NCBI GenBank assembly: GCA_947491475.1
Contig: CANLKN010000035.1
Span: forward strand, 1 to 35,612
Length of the DNA stretch: 35,612 nucleotides
Origin: Akkermansiaceae bacterium
Lineage (GTDB): Bacteria > Verrucomicrobiota > Verrucomicrobiia > Verrucomicrobiales > Akkermansiaceae
Direction of reading: 5' to 3'
Shown here: one piece after another, positions 12,194-21,100 of the stretch
Layout: each line of letters opens with the position of its first letter
Numbering within the stretch: the stretch's first letter is position 1
Program-made: the position numbers and the translations under genes
Notes under the pieces: generated by a model
What the model was told of the DNA's origin: nothing
Database searches by the model: none
Seen by the model: the letters and a program-made list of their open reading frames with translations, nothing else

Positions 12194-13867
12194 ATGAGCC
12201 ATCCCACCTTCCGCATCGCCGTTGGCGCCGATCACGGCGCTTTTGATCTAAAAAACGCTGTTGTTTCCCACCTCAAGGCCGTCGGCCATGAGATTCACGA
12301 CTTCGGCACGCACGACGCGGCCGCGGTCGATTACGCCGATTACGCCAATCTCGTGGCCCGCAATGTGGCAGACGGCACCTACGACTTCGGGATACTTGCC
12401 TGCACCTCAGGTGTCGGCATGAGCATCGCCGCCAACCGCCACCGCCACGTGCGCGCTGCCAGCGTGCGCTCGGTCGAGGAAACCATGATCACCCGCCAAC
12501 ACAACGATTCGAATATCCTCTGCCTGAGCGGCAGACACACCGATGCCGCCACCGCCATCGCCATGGCGGACACCTTCCTCATCACGCCCTTCGAAGGTGG
12601 CCGCCACGAAGCGCGCATTTGCAAAGCCTCCGGCAGTCGCATTGCAGAGACCGATCCGGCGATCTATGCTGCCATCACCGCCGAGGAGAAACGCCAACGC
12701 AACAACATCGAGCTTATCGCTTCGGAAAATTTCACCTCGCCCGCCGTGATGGAGGCCCAGGGTTCGGTGCTCACCAATAAATATGCAGAGGGCTACCCCG
12801 GCCGCCGGTGGTATGGCGGTTGCGAAAACGTGGACATCGTCGAACAACTCGCCATCGACCGGGCCAAGGAGCTTTTCGGTGCCGAGCACGCCAACGTCCA
12901 GCCGCACTCCGGTTCGCAGGCGAACACCGCCGTTTATTTCTCCGTCCTCAAACCGGGCGACAAGATTTTCACCATGGATCTCGCCCACGGCGGCCACCTC
13001 ACCCACGGCCACAAGGCAAATTTCTCCGGCCGATTCTATGACGTCACCCACTATGGCGTATCTCCGGATGACGAGCGCATCAACTATGACGAATTGGAAA
13101 AAACCGCGCGCGAACTGAAACCCGCGCTCATCACCGTGGGGGCTTCAGCCTATTCCCGCGTCATCGATTTCGAACGCATGGGCAAGCTCGCCCGTGAGAT
13201 CGGTTCCTATCTGTTTGTGGACATGGCGCACATCGCCGGTCTCGTCGCCGCGGGCATCCACCCGAGCCCGATCCCGCACGCGGATTTCGTCACATCCACC
13301 ACCCACAAGTCCCTGCGGGGCCCGCGTGGAGGCATCATTTTGTGCAAGGAGGAGTTTGCGAAGAAAATCGACTCCCAGGTGTTCCCCGGCATCCAGGGCG
13401 GCCCGCTCATGCACGTCATCGCCGCCAAGGCCATCTGCTTCGGCGAGGCGCTCAAGCAGGAGTTCAAGGAATACTCGTCACAAGTTGTTAGAAACGCGCA
13501 AGCCATCGCCGCGCGTCTCACCGATCACGGATTCCGCATCTGTTCCGGCGGCACCGACAACCACCTGATGCTTGTCGATCTGCGCAACAAGAACCTCAAC
13601 GGCACCGAAGCCTCGCACGCCCTCGACGAGGCCGGTATCACCGTCAACAAAAACGGCATCCCTTTCGACACTGGCAGCCCGATGAAACCCAGCGGCATCC
13701 GCATCGGCACCCCCGCGGTCACCACCCGCGGCATGATGGAGAAGGATGTCGAACAAGTCGCCGACTTCATCCACGAAGCCTTGTCGGATCATGCCAATCT
13801 AGCGAAGTTACACGCACTCCGCGAACGGGTCTTCGCCTTCAACCGCGACTTCCCGCTTCCTTGGTGA
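12194..13867 (+). CDS. rpiB-glyA: Fused ribose-5-phosphate isomerase B / serine hydroxymethyltransferase
   Basis: One uninterrupted 557-residue frame holds two complete enzymes. Residues 1-145 are Rpi[11 protein letters not shown] (Asp13/His14), active-site Cys70 in [14 protein letters not shown], His103 in RQHNDSN, and EGGRHEAR near 134-141. Residues about 150-557 are [15 protein letters not shown] (172-182), [25 protein letters not shown] (235-244), and the PLP lysine Lys372 in [21 protein letters not shown] and SGIRIGTPA follow. The linker is only a few residues. RpiB interconverts ribulose-5-P and ribose-5-P; SHMT converts serine plus THF to glycine plus methylene-THF, the cofactor ThyA uses 1.5 kb away. 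All listed catalytic residues are present, so both halves look active. Confidence 0.95.
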
Positions 13868-15557: not shown

Positions 15558-17387
15558 TCAATCTTCCAGATAGAAAAGCAGGTCGCTGAGGGTGTCGAGA
15601 ATGGTGCGCAGTTGATTCCAGTCCCGCGCATCGATGGCCACGGGGATGGCGGCGAGGCTGGTGTGGATGGCGGCGGCATCGGTTTCCGGCACGCCTTGAT
15701 CGAGAAGTTTGCCAGCGCGGTTACGCAGGCTCTTGGCGGAGGCGAGCAATGCGGAGGAGTTCGCCGGTCCCTCGTTTTCTGGAGCGGATAGATCGACGGA
15801 TTCTCCGTCATACTCCGAAGTGAATTCGTCGTCCTCATCTTCGGCTTCCTCATCATCTTCTGAAAATGCGGCGTCCTGTTCTTCGAAAAGAGCGGCGAGA
15901 TTAGTGCGGGCGGCATCGAGATTGATCCGATGTTGACCGGCGGTATCGATGGTGACGGACTTGGCCAGCCCGGTGCGTTTTTCGGTGGCCGTGGCGGTGA
16001 GCAAGCCGTTCAGATCGATGTGGAACTGGACGATGATTTCGTTACCGGCGGGCACATCGGAGAGCCCGGTGACCATGAACTCACCGATGCTGAGGTTCTC
16101 GGAGGGGTCATCGCTTTCACCCTGGTAAACCTGAACTTCGACCTTCTCCTGGAAATCTACCTGGGTGGTGAACAGGTCGGCCTTGGTGACCGGCAACGGT
16201 GTGCCACGACGGACAACCGGGCAGCAGCCGAGGATTCTCCCCATGAAATCATGACCGACCACGGCGAGCACGCTGTAGGTGTGGGCGGAAATATCGACCA
16301 GAATCGCCGGAGTCGGTTGCCCGGCAAGGGTGGCTCCCTGAATGGCCGCCCCCATGGCAACGACCAGATCCGGGTTGATTTCATGGCGGGGTTCCATGTC
16401 GAGAGTCCGCATCAGCAGCTCCTGCACCGCAGGGGTGCGGGTGGCACCACCGACGAGCATGATCTTATCGAGTTGGTGCGCGGTGATACCGGCGTCGGCA
16501 ATCGTGCGCTGAACACAGTCGAGCGTTTTCACCAACCACGGATCAATCAGTTGTTCGTAGTCATAACGGGAGATCTCGGTTTCAAGGTGGCTGGCAGGGG
16601 TGAGATATTCTTCCCGGACGGTGGCGAATGGTTCGTCAGACAGGTGGATTTTGGCGATTTCCATGGCGCTCTTGAGGCGACGGTGTGCGGCAGCGGGCAG
16701 GGAGTCCGCGTGTTTTTCCCGCAAGCGTTCCTCGCCCAGATTGGTGAGTGCTTCGTCGAAATCATCTCCTCCGAGGTGGATGTCACCATGGCTGGCACGG
16801 ACCTCGACGATGCCGTTTTCGACACGCACCACAGATACATCGAAGGTGCCTCCCCCGAGGTCATAGACAAGAAGGGTTTCATTTTCCGAAGTGTCGGATT
16901 GGCCCGCTCCATAAGCGAGAGCCGCAGCGGTGGGTTCATTGATGATGCGCAGAACCTCCAGTCCGGCGAGACTGCCGGCGTCCTGAGTGGCCAGACGCTG
17001 GCGCTCGTTGAAAAAGGCGGGAACCGTGATGACCGCCTGGGTGACAGACCTGCCGAGGTGGGCTTCGGCGGCTCGCTTGAGTTCGCCGAGAATCAATGCG
17101 CTGATTTCCTCCGGCCGGTAGGATTTTCCAACCAGCTCGGCGGTGGCGTCGGTGCCCATGAGCCGCTTGATCGAGAGAACCGTGTTTTCCGGGGCGGAGA
17201 TGGCTTGGTTCTTTGCCGCTTGGCCGACGACCAGCTTGCCGGTGGGATCGATGCCGACGACGCTGGGCATCGTAAGCTGGCCATTCACCGGAATGACCGT
17301 GAGCTTGCCGTCCTGGGCGACGGCGACAGAGGAGTTGGTGGTCCCGAGATCGATACCGATGACGAGTGGCGGGAAGTTCTGGTTCAT
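15558..17387 (-). CDS. Hsp70-family chaperone (DnaK-like, specialised)
   Basis: The 609-residue protein has all ATPase landmarks of Hsp70: IGIDLGTTNSSVAV (10-23), VITVPAFFNERQR, INEPTAAALAYG, VYDLGGGTFDVSVV and LVGGATRTPAVQ. The substrate-binding part follows (VVRRGTPLPVTK, VQVYQGESDDPSENLSIG). The lid is short and interrupted by an acidic insert (about 509-531, rich in Asp/Glu), and the end is FYLED, not EEVD. It is therefore not the housekeeping DnaK. It is the last gene of a four-gene minus-strand operon, 27 bases after the GrpE-like gene. The arrangement recalls E. coli hscC, whose J partner genes are nearby. It probably acts in the cytoplasm on a narrow set of clients. Confidence 0.9.
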   Translation of the reverse strand: MNQNFPPLVIGIDLGTTNSSVAVAQDGKLTVIPVNGQLTMPSVVGIDPTGKLVVGQAAKNQAISAPENTVLSIKRLMGTDATAELVGKSYRPEEISALILGELKRAAEAHLGRSVTQAVITVPAFFNERQRLATQDAGSLAGLEVLRIINEPTAAALAYGAGQSDTSENETLLVYDLGGGTFDVSVVRVENGIVEVRASHGDIHLGGDDFDEALTNLGEERLREKHADSLPAAAHRRLKSAMEIAKIHLSDEPFATVREEYLTPASHLETEISRYDYEQLIDPWLVKTLDCVQRTIADAGITAHQLDKIMLVGGATRTPAVQELLMRTLDMEPRHEINPDLVVAMGAAIQGATLAGQPTPAILVDISAHTYSVLAVVGHDFMGRILGCCPVVRRGTPLPVTKADLFTTQVDFQEKVEVQVYQGESDDPSENLSIGEFMVTGLSDVPAGNEIIVQFHIDLNGLLTATATEKRTGLAKSVTIDTAGQHRINLDAARTNLAALFEEQDAAFSEDDEEAEDEDDEFTSEYDGESVDLSAPENEGPANSSALLASAKSLRNRAGKLLDQGVPETDAAAIHTSLAAIPVAIDARDWNQLRTILDTLSDLLFYLED

Positions 17388-17414: not shown

Positions 17415-18080
17415 TCAGCGGGCAGAAACGCGGGAAACCCGGACCTGGGCCGGGCGGACAAGCTGGTCGGATGCGGTATTCCTCCACCCTGGAAGGATCT
17501 CCACAAGCACCGTGTGGTCGGGTTTTTCCGGGTCCACGGTGGATTCGACGGCGGTCATGATGTTCGGATCAAAGGCGCGGTCCATGACATCCAGTCGCTC
17601 CAGACTTGCCCGTTGCATGGTGGCCGCAAGGTGACTGCGGAGAATGGAAACGGCATCCGCCTGCATTTCCCAGGCTTCTCTCCATGCTTCCACCTGTCGG
17701 CGTGCGCCCGGCCACCATGGATCGCGGGCTGCGGGCGGACGGGCAAATCCATGGGCCACACGGTCGATGCGGTCCGCAAGTTCCACCAGCGCCAGCGCGC
17801 CAGATTGCGGCAGCCCATCACATGGCGGCGACGCGGCGGATGTGATGGCCGGCAAATTGCGCACTGCCTTGTGAGTGTCGTTGGACGTGGCGGAGAGCGC
17901 GTCGAGCAGACCGCCGAAGTTTTTCAACACCTCGAGTACCCGCCGGTTGCCGCGACGGTTTTCCTCGGTGCTGGCAACGAGTTCCTCATGCAGTGCTTCA
18001 AGTGTGATTTCCGAATCCTCTTCCTCTTCGGAAAACTCCTCATCGTCGGGCATGTTCAATGAATCATTGGGTGGCATCAT
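17415..18080 (-). CDS. GrpE-like nucleotide exchange factor
   Basis: The start at 18080 gives 221 residues. The N-terminus is strongly acidic (PDDEEFSEEEEDSE). Helical segments follow (ALHEELVASTEENRRGNRRVLEVL), with a middle predicted to be flexible. The last 65 residues fit the GrpE beta-wing: LERLDVMDRAFDPNIMTAVES, then HTVLVEILPGWR and a terminal LVRPAQVRVSR, matching the family's 'FDP..HEAV', 'V..E...GY' and 'LRPA.V.V' positions. Its role would be ADP release from the Hsp70 encoded 27 bases downstream. It is more divergent than housekeeping GrpE, and the long central part (about 60-135) is unlike it. Identification rests mainly on the C-terminus and context. Confidence 0.75.
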   Translation of the reverse strand: MMPPNDSLNMPDDEEFSEEEEDSEITLEALHEELVASTEENRRGNRRVLEVLKNFGGLLDALSATSNDTHKAVRNLPAITSAASPPCDGLPQSGALALVELADRIDRVAHGFARPPAARDPWWPGARRQVEAWREAWEMQADAVSILRSHLAATMQRASLERLDVMDRAFDPNIMTAVESTVDPEKPDHTVLVEILPGWRNTASDQLVRPAQVRVSRVSAR

Positions 18081-18105: not shown

Positions 18106-18432
18106 TCACTTCGATTGTTCCCGCAGGGCGGCGTTGGCGCAACCATGCAGGAAGGTGCGGAATGCGTCCGCTCCAGGCGGTTTCATTTTTCCGGGAAGCC
18201 GGGCAAAATCCTCCAGAGCCCGCAACGGACCGATCCGCTCCGACGGCAGGTGAAACAACAGCCAGTGGCGACGGTCGGCGGCAGTCCGCGTCGCCTGATA
18301 GGCCTCCTGGATGACCTGGAATTCGCGCGGCCGGTGCTCCGGCGGATAGCGGCGCAGTAAATTCTGATAGGCCGCGCGCACTTCTTCATCGGTGGTATCC
18401 ACCGGCACATCGAGGACGAGAAACGGGTTCAT
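18106..18432 (-). CDS. J-domain-like protein lacking the HPD motif
   Basis: The 108-residue protein starts MNPFLVLDVPVDTTDEEVRAAYQNLLRRY, which matches helices I and II of a J domain. FQVIQEAYQ matches helix III. At the turn between them, where J proteins have His-Pro-Asp, residues 30-32 are Pro-Pro-Glu (YPPEH). HPD is required to stimulate Hsp70 ATPase in canonical J proteins, so this one is either a J-like protein with an altered mode or a non-stimulating adaptor. The C-terminal half (LLFHLPSERIGPLRALEDFARLPG) is unlike known zinc or client domains. Stop and start spacing to both neighbours is very short (25 and 4 bases), so it belongs to the chaperone operon. Confidence 0.75.
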   Translation of the reverse strand: MNPFLVLDVPVDTTDEEVRAAYQNLLRRYPPEHRPREFQVIQEAYQATRTAADRRHWLLFHLPSERIGPLRALEDFARLPGKMKPPGADAFRTFLHGCANAALREQSK

Positions 18433-18436
18433 AATG

Positions 18437-21100
18437 TTAGAAAAGATCGATCTGGCGGGGATCAGGAGCGGATTTTTTCGCGCTTTTTTTCGCCTTTGCG
18501 GTTTTTGCGGAACGAGAGGGGCCGAATGCGGCGGTGAGAGCCAGGATGGCCATATCAAGATTCTTCTTCTTCACGCCCATGCCTAACAAAATCTGACGAA
18601 TGGTCTCCACCGCCACGTCGTCTCCGTTGATAATGGCGACCTTGAGGTCGTCCATGTACCGGTCCGGAGACAATATGCCGCTAGTGTGGGGTTCTTCATC
18701 TTCATCGTCATCCCATATATCGTCATCATCCCATGTGTCATCGTCCCCGTCGTCGTCTTCATCGAAGAAGCTGCCGAAGGGCTGTTGAAAACTCCCGTTC
18801 TTGATAGCCTTTTGCAACTCCCTTGCCCGCGCCGCAATCGCGGGAAGCCCTGCGGCCTCCGCGTCGGCAATGATGGATTTCAGGTATTTGGGGTGATTCC
18901 GGGGTTCTCCGGAGTCGCAAAGCAGACTTGCCAAGCGGAGACGCGGATCCGTTTTTTTCGAACCGCAACTCACCTGTTGGTGAAGCGCATTGGCAATGTC
19001 CCGGGACACCAACGCAATGGCATGAGAGGCGGTCTCCGAGGCCCCTTTCTTGAGGGCATTAATTCCGTCAAGTGTTTCCAGCAAACCCGCCGGGTCAGCC
19101 TGGAGTTGGCCGGGAGCCACCAAATACCCCAGAGCCTTCAGGAGCCGGTCACTGGCAGCTTTCGTGTGTTTCCATCCCCAGCCGGAGATGTAACTGGTGA
19201 AATTCATAATCCGCAGCATTTCAAGCAGGGACTTCCATGTGCATTCGGATGAAGACCTGGCCACGGTCCATGCCCGCTCCCATTCCTTACGGGGTGGCAC
19301 ACCATAGACGGACGCCAGCGTGATGGCAAAAAACAAGCGAACCAGACCCGAGGGAGCCATCGCGACGGAATCCGCCTCCGCCTGTGTGCCGGTCTCGGAC
19401 TCCTGCTCCAACAACGACCGCCGGACCCGCGCCATCCAGCGACTGAGCATGTAGTGACCGCTTGGCGCGTTTTCTAACAATGGATCGATCGCCGCCCACA
19501 AGTCTGCGGTTGAGGCACCCTTGCTACCGACCTCCCGCACCCGCAGAACTAAAGCAATCACGATCCTTTCCTTGATCGCCTTATCAAGTGGATCCAGAGC
19601 CAGCGCGGTTTGCAGCATGGTGATGCCTTTGGGATAACTCTTGCGGGCAATGGCACGGTCCCCGGCAAGAATTAGGATGCCTTTGTTGCGGGGGAATTTT
19701 TCCACCAGATCGTCCAGCATCTTGTTGCTCCGCTTGGTGTCGTCCTGCCTGATCAAAAGAGACACCAAGCCAAGCCACGCACCCTCATTCGCCTCATCGG
19801 ACTCAATGGCTTTCTCATAGGCCTTGACTGCCTTGGCCGCGCTCTTACGCACCTCAGAGCCGTCAAAATCGAACGGGTTGCTCAGCTCGCCTGGTTTTCC
19901 CAAGGCGTCGCCAAGCCATTGCCATGCCAGCGAGTCACGCTGCCGATCCGGCCCATGACATCTTTGCCACAGATCAATGACCATCCGCCAGCATCGATCC
20001 AATTCGCCGTGTGGCATCTCACCATTTTCCGCGACACACATCGAGCGCAAAACCGCCAGCACCGACTTGGGAAAGTGAGAATTGGTCTTCGCCCGCTCAT
20101 TGCCGAATCGCAGGTAAAATTTTTCAGAATCCGACCAATCATCCTGATTCATGCGGGCATGGGATGGCAGGATCGCATCCGTCAAAAGAGCCGGTAATCC
20201 GGAAACAACGGACGGAAACGAATCTTTCATGCCAGCCGCCAGATCATCGAACGCCTGGATTCGCCTGCCCGCCTTCCATGAGGCGGAGGCGCTTAAAATC
20301 GGTGCCGCCCACGCTGCTGGCTGACCGGTGACCGCCAAATAAAACGGAATCGTGGCGGTGGCCGGTGCCGGGCGCGCACCCGCGACCAGATCCGGGGCCA
20401 AGGACGCCGCCGCCCGCGCCAAAGCCCCAGTGGGTGGCAATTGCCCGAAACACTGGCGGGAAGTTTCACGATCATCCTCGAAAACACAGCGCACGCCGCG
20501 CAGGAAAATCCGCCACTGCCAGAAAACCGACTGCCTCGGCAGGTCACGCAGGGCATGTTTTGCCTCCTCCCACCGTCCGTCACCGGTCGCGGCACATGCG
20601 GCGCGCACCGCCTTCAACTCCGCGGCCAACCGCGCGGCCTGCGCGTCAGCGCCCTCATCATCCGTCACAAACCCATCCGTCACCAGCAAATCGACAGCTC
20701 CCTGATCCGCAGGTGAAACAACAAGCGCCTTCATCAATGCCTCGTCCGCCCTCAACGCGGCCTCCCACCATCCCACCTTACCGGAATCCTTCAGCGCAGC
20801 CACCTGACGCTTGCTTGTCGGCGCGGCCATTTCCGCCCGCAGCATGGCCATTGTATCCGCCGGGGCAAAAGTTGCCAGATAGGTCATCACTGTTTCCGCA
20901 TCCTTGACCAGCCCTTTGCCAAGCATATCGCGCACCAATCCCACATTCGCCCGGATGAGTAAAACCAGATACCGCCCGCGGTCCTTCTTGCACAATTCCT
21001 TGGCCGCATCCCGCGCTTTTCTCCAAAGCCCCGCCTCTATCAACTGAAGCACCCGCGCACCTTCAGAATCGTTTGCAAACTCCTTTGGATTTCCACTCAT
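18437..21100 (-). CDS. Large helical-repeat (TPR-like) protein of the chaperone operon
   Basis: The 887-residue protein is first in the operon. It is largely alpha-helical, and several stretches look like tetratricopeptide repeats (WRKARDAAKELCKKDRGRYL near 27; AVKAYEKAIESDEANEGAWL near 425; YPKGITMLQTALALDPLDKA near 485). There is no signal peptide or membrane segment. Near the C-terminus is an extreme Asp-rich run with WDDDDIWDDDED (DNA about 18691-18768). A Lys/Ala tail (KTAKAKKSAKKS) follows, and the last residues are RQIDLF. It is probably a client-recruiting scaffold for the Hsp70; this is inference from context. No enzyme motif was found. The next gene starts 4 bases after its stop. 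Confidence 0.75.
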   Translation of the reverse strand: MSGNPKEFANDSEGARVLQLIEAGLWRKARDAAKELCKKDRGRYLVLLIRANVGLVRDMLGKGLVKDAETVMTYLATFAPADTMAMLRAEMAAPTSKRQVAALKDSGKVGWWEAALRADEALMKALVVSPADQGAVDLLVTDGFVTDDEGADAQAARLAAELKAVRAACAATGDGRWEEAKHALRDLPRQSVFWQWRIFLRGVRCVFEDDRETSRQCFGQLPPTGALARAAASLAPDLVAGARPAPATATIPFYLAVTGQPAAWAAPILSASASWKAGRRIQAFDDLAAGMKDSFPSVVSGLPALLTDAILPSHARMNQDDWSDSEKFYLRFGNERAKTNSHFPKSVLAVLRSMCVAENGEMPHGELDRCWRMVIDLWQRCHGPDRQRDSLAWQWLGDALGKPGELSNPFDFDGSEVRKSAAKAVKAYEKAIESDEANEGAWLGLVSLLIRQDDTKRSNKMLDDLVEKFPRNKGILILAGDRAIARKSYPKGITMLQTALALDPLDKAIKERIVIALVLRVREVGSKGASTADLWAAIDPLLENAPSGHYMLSRWMARVRRSLLEQESETGTQAEADSVAMAPSGLVRLFFAITLASVYGVPPRKEWERAWTVARSSSECTWKSLLEMLRIMNFTSYISGWGWKHTKAASDRLLKALGYLVAPGQLQADPAGLLETLDGINALKKGASETASHAIALVSRDIANALHQQVSCGSKKTDPRLRLASLLCDSGEPRNHPKYLKSIIADAEAAGLPAIAARARELQKAIKNGSFQQPFGSFFDEDDDGDDDTWDDDDIWDDDEDEEPHTSGILSPDRYMDDLKVAIINGDDVAVETIRQILLGMGVKKKNLDMAILALTAAFGPSRSAKTAKAKKSAKKSAPDPRQIDLF

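Follow-up and report, generated by a model that had tools for sequence, protein, structure and literature searches.

A J-like protein lacking the HPD histidine, encoded with an Hsp70 and a GrpE-like exchange factor in Verrucomicrobiota

A four-gene cluster in the window (the whole 35,612-nucleotide stretch of Akkermansiaceae DNA analysed here) encodes a short protein of predicted J fold in which Pro-Pro-Glu (PPE) stands in place of the His-Pro-Asp (HPD) triad. On balance this protein is probably a dedicated J-type co-chaperone that carries a [PST]-P-[DE] motif, works with the Hsp70 encoded two genes downstream and would stimulate its ATPase. The HPD triad is regarded as an indispensable switch of Hsp70 machines. 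The cluster protein is not classed here as a canonical (HPD) J-domain protein; judged from its sequence, it would most likely work like one.

The genes run along the minus strand from 21100 to 15558 in the order large TPR-type protein, J protein, GrpE-like exchange factor and Hsp70. From their coordinates the intergenic gaps are 4, 25 and 27 bases, the first separating the stop of the TPR-type gene from the J start. The features are as follows.

18437..21100, minus strand: TPR-type protein of 887 aa, first gene of the cluster, with weak TPR matches in Pfam
18106..18432, minus strand: J-fold protein of 108 aa, ATG start at 18432, supported by a Pfam DnaJ match and a predicted fold
18337..18345, minus strand: codons CCG CCG GAG, Pro30-Pro31-Glu32, where J domains have His-Pro-Asp
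17415..18080, minus strand: GrpE-like nucleotide exchange factor of 221 aa, supported by a Pfam GrpE match (2.1e-11) and a predicted fold
15558..17387, minus strand: Hsp70 of 609 aa, the proposed partner of the J protein (Pfam HSP70, 2.5e-136)

The J gene and its predicted fold

The initial annotation had read PPE for HPD at residues 30-32 of a protein with recognisable J-domain helices. Translation of 18432-18106 (minus strand) confirms the motif, and a scan of the full translation finds the tripeptide HPD nowhere in the 108 residues. PPE is in register with the motif of DnaJ, nine residues leading from Y22 to P31 here and from Y25 to P34 in DnaJ. Against the Pfam DnaJ family (PF00226) the protein scores 28.9 bits, only just above the cut-off of 27.8, and with PPE it does not carry the HPD signature of the J domain.

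The helices are likewise borne out, as a prediction, by structural modelling. An AlphaFold2 model built on 24 homologues has helices at residues 3-7, 15-28, 35-48 and 51-61, with PPE in the loop joining the second and third, and shows helices II and III as a hairpin, as in the J fold. Ten-residue block means of pLDDT are 92-97 over residues 1-60 and 61-82 over the last 48 residues. When PDB chains were aligned to the model, 45 of 84 reached a Z of at least 8, values which the aligning tool warns are modest for helical folds; chain B of 5nro, a J domain bound to DnaK, aligned over 56 residues with a Z of 8.2 and an rmsd of 1.5. Foldseek returned no matches to the model below an E of 0.001.

Comparison of the J gene with three relatives gave dN/dS values of 0.09, 0.14 and 0.18, dS being near saturation in the comparisons that gave the last two, and purifying selection acts on the gene. 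By eye the J protein has no acidic run, unlike its three cluster partners, in which such a stretch lies near the C-terminus of the TPR-type protein, at the N-terminus of the GrpE-like protein and in an insert near the C-terminus of the Hsp70.

Conservation of the motif and of the cluster

Homologues were sought by a protein search of 145 related genomes and by profile searches of 387 genomes of the phylum and 386 of the order, these last two samples overlapping and at most 12 candidates being scored per genome. Including that of the window, 24 short cluster J genes from 23 Verrucomicrobiota genomes were read, comprising 23 at E <= 1e-15 among the matches listed and one (G054) from the protein search; L034 and L110 are near-copies, as are L029 and L030. 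The motif is PPE in 16, SPE in five, and SPD, TPD and TPE in one each, giving Pro (16), Ser (6) or Thr (2) at the first position and His in none. The motif Pro is kept in 24/24, P31 being one of only five invariant columns in the J alignment, and the third position is acidic in 24/24. On the tree of 22 cluster Hsp70s at least four changes are required at the first motif residue, each of them from one of P, S and T to another, although the Pro codons CCC and CCT are one base from His codons. A displaced histidine was considered and rejected: His occurs at position 29 in only 7/24 and at position 33 in only 3/24, so no shifted His is conserved.

Since a profile made from members without His could miss members that have it, the GrpE-like profile was also run against the phylum sample. 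Matches were obtained in 71 of the 387 genomes and were near full-length in nine (E 3e-40 or better). These are the same nine genomes that gave strong J matches, and the J genes read beside their GrpE-like genes have PPE or SPE in 9/9; the GrpE-like rows of the nine were themselves part of the search profile. The next matches drop to E 3e-18, and most of them, among the matches listed, cover the C-terminal part only. A scan of genome contigs gave one close homologue, L023 from a MAG labelled Akkermansiaceae (at 88% over 108 aa the closest of the named homologues), and two weak matches, of which L024 is an HPD protein and L025 just a 12-residue open frame.

J domains outside the cluster read differently. 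Among 40 control J domains, which are best-scoring loci rather than a random sample (41 loci were given, L006, an HPD protein, falling outside the 40), 28 have HPD, 11 RPD and one RPE. The 12 RPD/RPE proteins are all long, at 352-564 aa (L055, L088-L097, L102), and the other five places found in the protein search of the 145 genomes (L017-L021) are also long RPD proteins. Arg in the long J proteins of Verrucomicrobiota is thus another departure at His. An HscC-like Hsp70 adjoins the long J gene in three of the four neighbourhoods inspected (L037/L118, L119, L120, L121). Two short J genes found without the cluster (L116, L117) read HPD, and E. coli DjlB and DjlC, when translated, read HPE. In the window's own genome there are five other J-domain matches, four of them above the Pfam cut-off, with HPD in 5/5; L004 of this genome is an HPD protein of 211 aa that appears HscB-like by eye. 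By these counts each kind of J protein has its own first residue: DnaJ-like rows and DjlB/C have His, the long proteins of the phylum Arg, and the cluster proteins Pro, Ser or Thr.

The gene order is conserved with the motif. GrpE-like and Hsp70 genes lie downstream of J in 22/24 loci, and in the other two (L031, L032) the contig stops 388 and 161 bases past J, stretches that gave no GrpE match. Upstream of J a large gene is present at the 21 loci with room for it. It matches the TPR-type profile in 17/21, two of these matches being weak (L108, L109), and in the remaining four the upstream ORF is of the same size and has no detectable similarity to the TPR-type protein. Pfam found no matches in the upstream genes of L103, L104, L105, L107 and L109. 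No second J match was found in the cluster. An ORF 3' of Hsp70 is common to six loci (L034, L035, L036, L110, L113, L114), a group outside which the window falls, and none of the 12 largest groups of conserved flanking genes beyond the four contains the window. Elsewhere in the window a single ORF (12194-13867, plus strand) fuses ribose-5-phosphate isomerase B (residues 8-144) to serine hydroxymethyltransferase (residues 151-526).

The product of the third cluster gene, whose start at 18080 was chosen as the first Met past the J stop, is predicted to have a GrpE fold. It scores 44.2 bits against Pfam GrpE (cut-off 25.8), its profile matches a solved GrpE at 1e-13, and 11/11 PDB matches to its model below an E of 0.001 are GrpE entries. 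The rmsd values are large, as expected of long hinged helices. The gene is the genome's second GrpE, beside its ordinary one, which hints that the cluster Hsp70, with an exchange factor of its own, actively cycles nucleotide. In known systems the Hsp70 ATP cycle requires a J protein, and since the cluster has a dedicated GrpE-like factor and only one J match, we infer that this J protein would be a working one.

Two other assignments of the cluster were rejected. As a defence island it drew from PADLOC one weak match, on the Hsp70. Conflict systems with Hsp70 and GrpE centre, in the accessible text of PMC7159879, on GTPases with FNIII proteins, and Pfam finds neither GTPase nor FNIII domains in the four cluster proteins. 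The titles and abstract openings of the open-access literature searched hold nothing on the cluster or on a [PST]P[DE] motif, and an earlier description is possible.

The partner Hsp70 and the proposed mechanism

In a quick tree the 22 cluster Hsp70s lie together on one side of a branch (support 99), apart from DnaK/HscA and HscC. This tree had long branches (E. coli HscC, E. coli HscA and the genome's own second Hsp70), and in a careful tree made without these three the cluster Hsp70s still group together (98/93), long branches still being flagged. In these trees, which are unrooted and hold four HscC rows at most, the partner Hsp70s group separately from the HscC rows and may thus stand outside HscC. 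The second non-DnaK Hsp70 of the genome (L040) joins HscA in the quick tree, with a support of 80 and a long-branch warning.

Contact residues were taken from the J-Hsp70 list in the accessible part of PMC8215388 (DnaK/DnaJ numbering), according to which the Pro of the motif faces P419 of DnaK and the acid faces R167 and Q378. Among the cluster Hsp70s R167, N170, E217, P419 and the linker residues L391 and D393 are each retained in 22/22, and Q378 is kept in 15/22, the other seven having Met or Leu. On the J side the residue matching DnaJ R22 is Arg in 22/24, K26 is kept in 0/24 (one Arg), K48 in 1/24 (two Arg), and the R27 position is basic in 10/24. On the cluster Hsp70s E206 is kept in 0/22 and D477 in 1/22, and D211 is deleted in 22/22; apart from R22 and E217, most of the steering charges are lost. 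A reading of this charge loss as co-evolution of a private pair was weakened by the same losses elsewhere: the genome's own DnaK has the D211 deletion too, HscC (4/4) lacks D211 and D477, and E. coli HscA lacks E206, D211 and D477. As the loss is not specific to the cluster, binding that is weak, or of another kind, would account for it equally well.

DnaK position 397, just past the linker, is His in 15 and Tyr in seven of the 22 cluster Hsp70s. HscC types have His (3/4) or Tyr (1/4) there, and two DnaK rows, HscA and the genome's second Hsp70 have Leu (4/4). From these sequences, a change at position 397 possibly accompanies altered HPD motifs.

We propose that the J protein, the GrpE-like protein and the Hsp70 would form a private Hsp70 machine of Verrucomicrobiota, the J protein and the Hsp70 pairing physically and the TPR-type protein probably being a client or an adaptor partner. 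The Pro and the acid of the motif would dock on the Hsp70 as in DnaJ (P419 and R167, DnaK numbering), and docking would trigger ATP hydrolysis in the cluster Hsp70. The His hydrogen bond to the L391 linker carbonyl would be dispensable, or replaced, in this pair. The wider claim, which we give roughly even chances and put forward tentatively, is that the cluster marks one more lineage of bacterial Hsp70, equipped with a GrpE of its own and triggered by a His-less J protein in which Pro and the acid are the minimal motif and the His contact has been lost.

For the altered motif the initial annotation had offered two readings, an unusual mode of Hsp70 engagement and a role in structure alone. 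The first stands in a narrower form, with only the His contact missing, because Pro and the acid are kept, as are the Hsp70 residues that receive them; the purely structural role is less favoured. It had also advised reading the HPD position in homologues beside similar Hsp70 genes, and named an intact HPD there, or a predicted structure without a J fold, as evidence against its interpretation. With His in 0/24 and a J fold predicted, neither is seen in the cluster.

According to the accessible text of PMC8215388, stimulation is lost on changing His to Gln in all systems tested, and a 2026 review (PMC13254874, in the part accessible) states that HPE seems to be the only tolerated replacement, which makes the cluster motif a testable exception. 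The same text of PMC13254874 mentions a J analogue, made by design, that lacks HPD and stimulates Hsc70; in principle, then, stimulation can occur without His.

Alternative readings and known systems

A dedicated, stimulating co-chaperone has one serious competitor, which we judge unlikely, at well under an even chance: a pseudo-J (type IV) protein that anchors or positions the Hsp70, or, like Pam16, competes with active J domains, the stimulation coming instead from a canonical HPD protein. HPD is formally broken in the cluster protein, and the non-conservative replacement that marks type IV is present in His to Pro, Asp to Glu being conservative. The J-positioning basic residues are mostly gone, five other J matches in the genome, all HPD, could supply the stimulation, and His to Gln or Asp to Asn kills stimulation in the accessible parts of PMC8215388 and PMC13254874. 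However, Pro and the acid are kept in 24/24, unlike the DKE/DKS of Pam16 (PMC13254874, accessible text), the receiving residues are retained on the partner Hsp70, and the cluster holds no second J match.

It is improbable that the protein is a plain HscC co-chaperone of the DjlB/DjlC kind with a slightly drifted motif. The loop after the motif is equally short in both (HPETDPQGF against PPEHRPREF), K26 is lost in both, and a deletion in NBD lobe I is common to the partner Hsp70 and HscC. Against this, the cluster J protein, at 108 aa, lacks the long C-terminal region that DjlB/C have, and the 22 partner Hsp70s stand apart from the HscC rows, which are few and in an unrooted tree. No GrpE-profile match was found around the HscC-like Hsp70s in the stretches at L037/L118, L119 and L121, and it is the long J proteins of the phylum, reading RPD/RPE in 12/12, that lie beside an HscC-like Hsp70 (3/4). 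A decaying or misread gene is hardly credible, as the Pfam score barely above the cut-off is set against a dN/dS of 0.09-0.18, a conserved gene order and 23 homologues whose motifs are of the same type.

If the co-chaperone reading is true, the cluster J protein may be evidence that a J protein can dispense with the histidine. Whether natural departures from HPD are accidents or selected is still unknown according to the accessible part of PMC13254874. The cluster provides a natural series of 24 His-less proteins that keep Pro and the acid, 22 of them followed by their own Hsp70 and exchange factor, and through this series the actual role of His can be probed with a simple ATPase assay. The cluster also points to a group of Hsp70s, equipped with all its co-chaperones, that is absent from the literature searched.

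Among known systems, DjlC/DjlB with HscC in E. coli is similar in having a specialised J protein next to an Hsp70 that is divergent, in its short loop after the motif and in the loss of K26. Its motif also departs from HPD (HPE), yet DjlC stimulates HscC (PMC8215388, accessible text). It differs in keeping His and in exceeding 470 aa, and the long, tail-anchored form described for DjlB/C in the same text is not that of the 108-aa cluster protein. The HscC rows fall in another part of the tree, and the annotation of the 15 kb around E. coli hscC shows no GrpE gene. Type IV J-domain proteins and Pam16 share the J fold and a changed HPD. Pam16 reads DKE or DKS, with Pro gone too, and it sits on a functional J protein, Pam18 (PMC13254874, accessible text), whereas the cluster protein keeps Pro and the acid in 24/24 and has no second J match beside it. 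DnaK-DnaJ-GrpE is alike in that the same three kinds of protein are encoded together, but the cluster Hsp70 lies outside the DnaK rows, its J protein is only 108 aa with a motif without His, and many of the charge contacts are lost.
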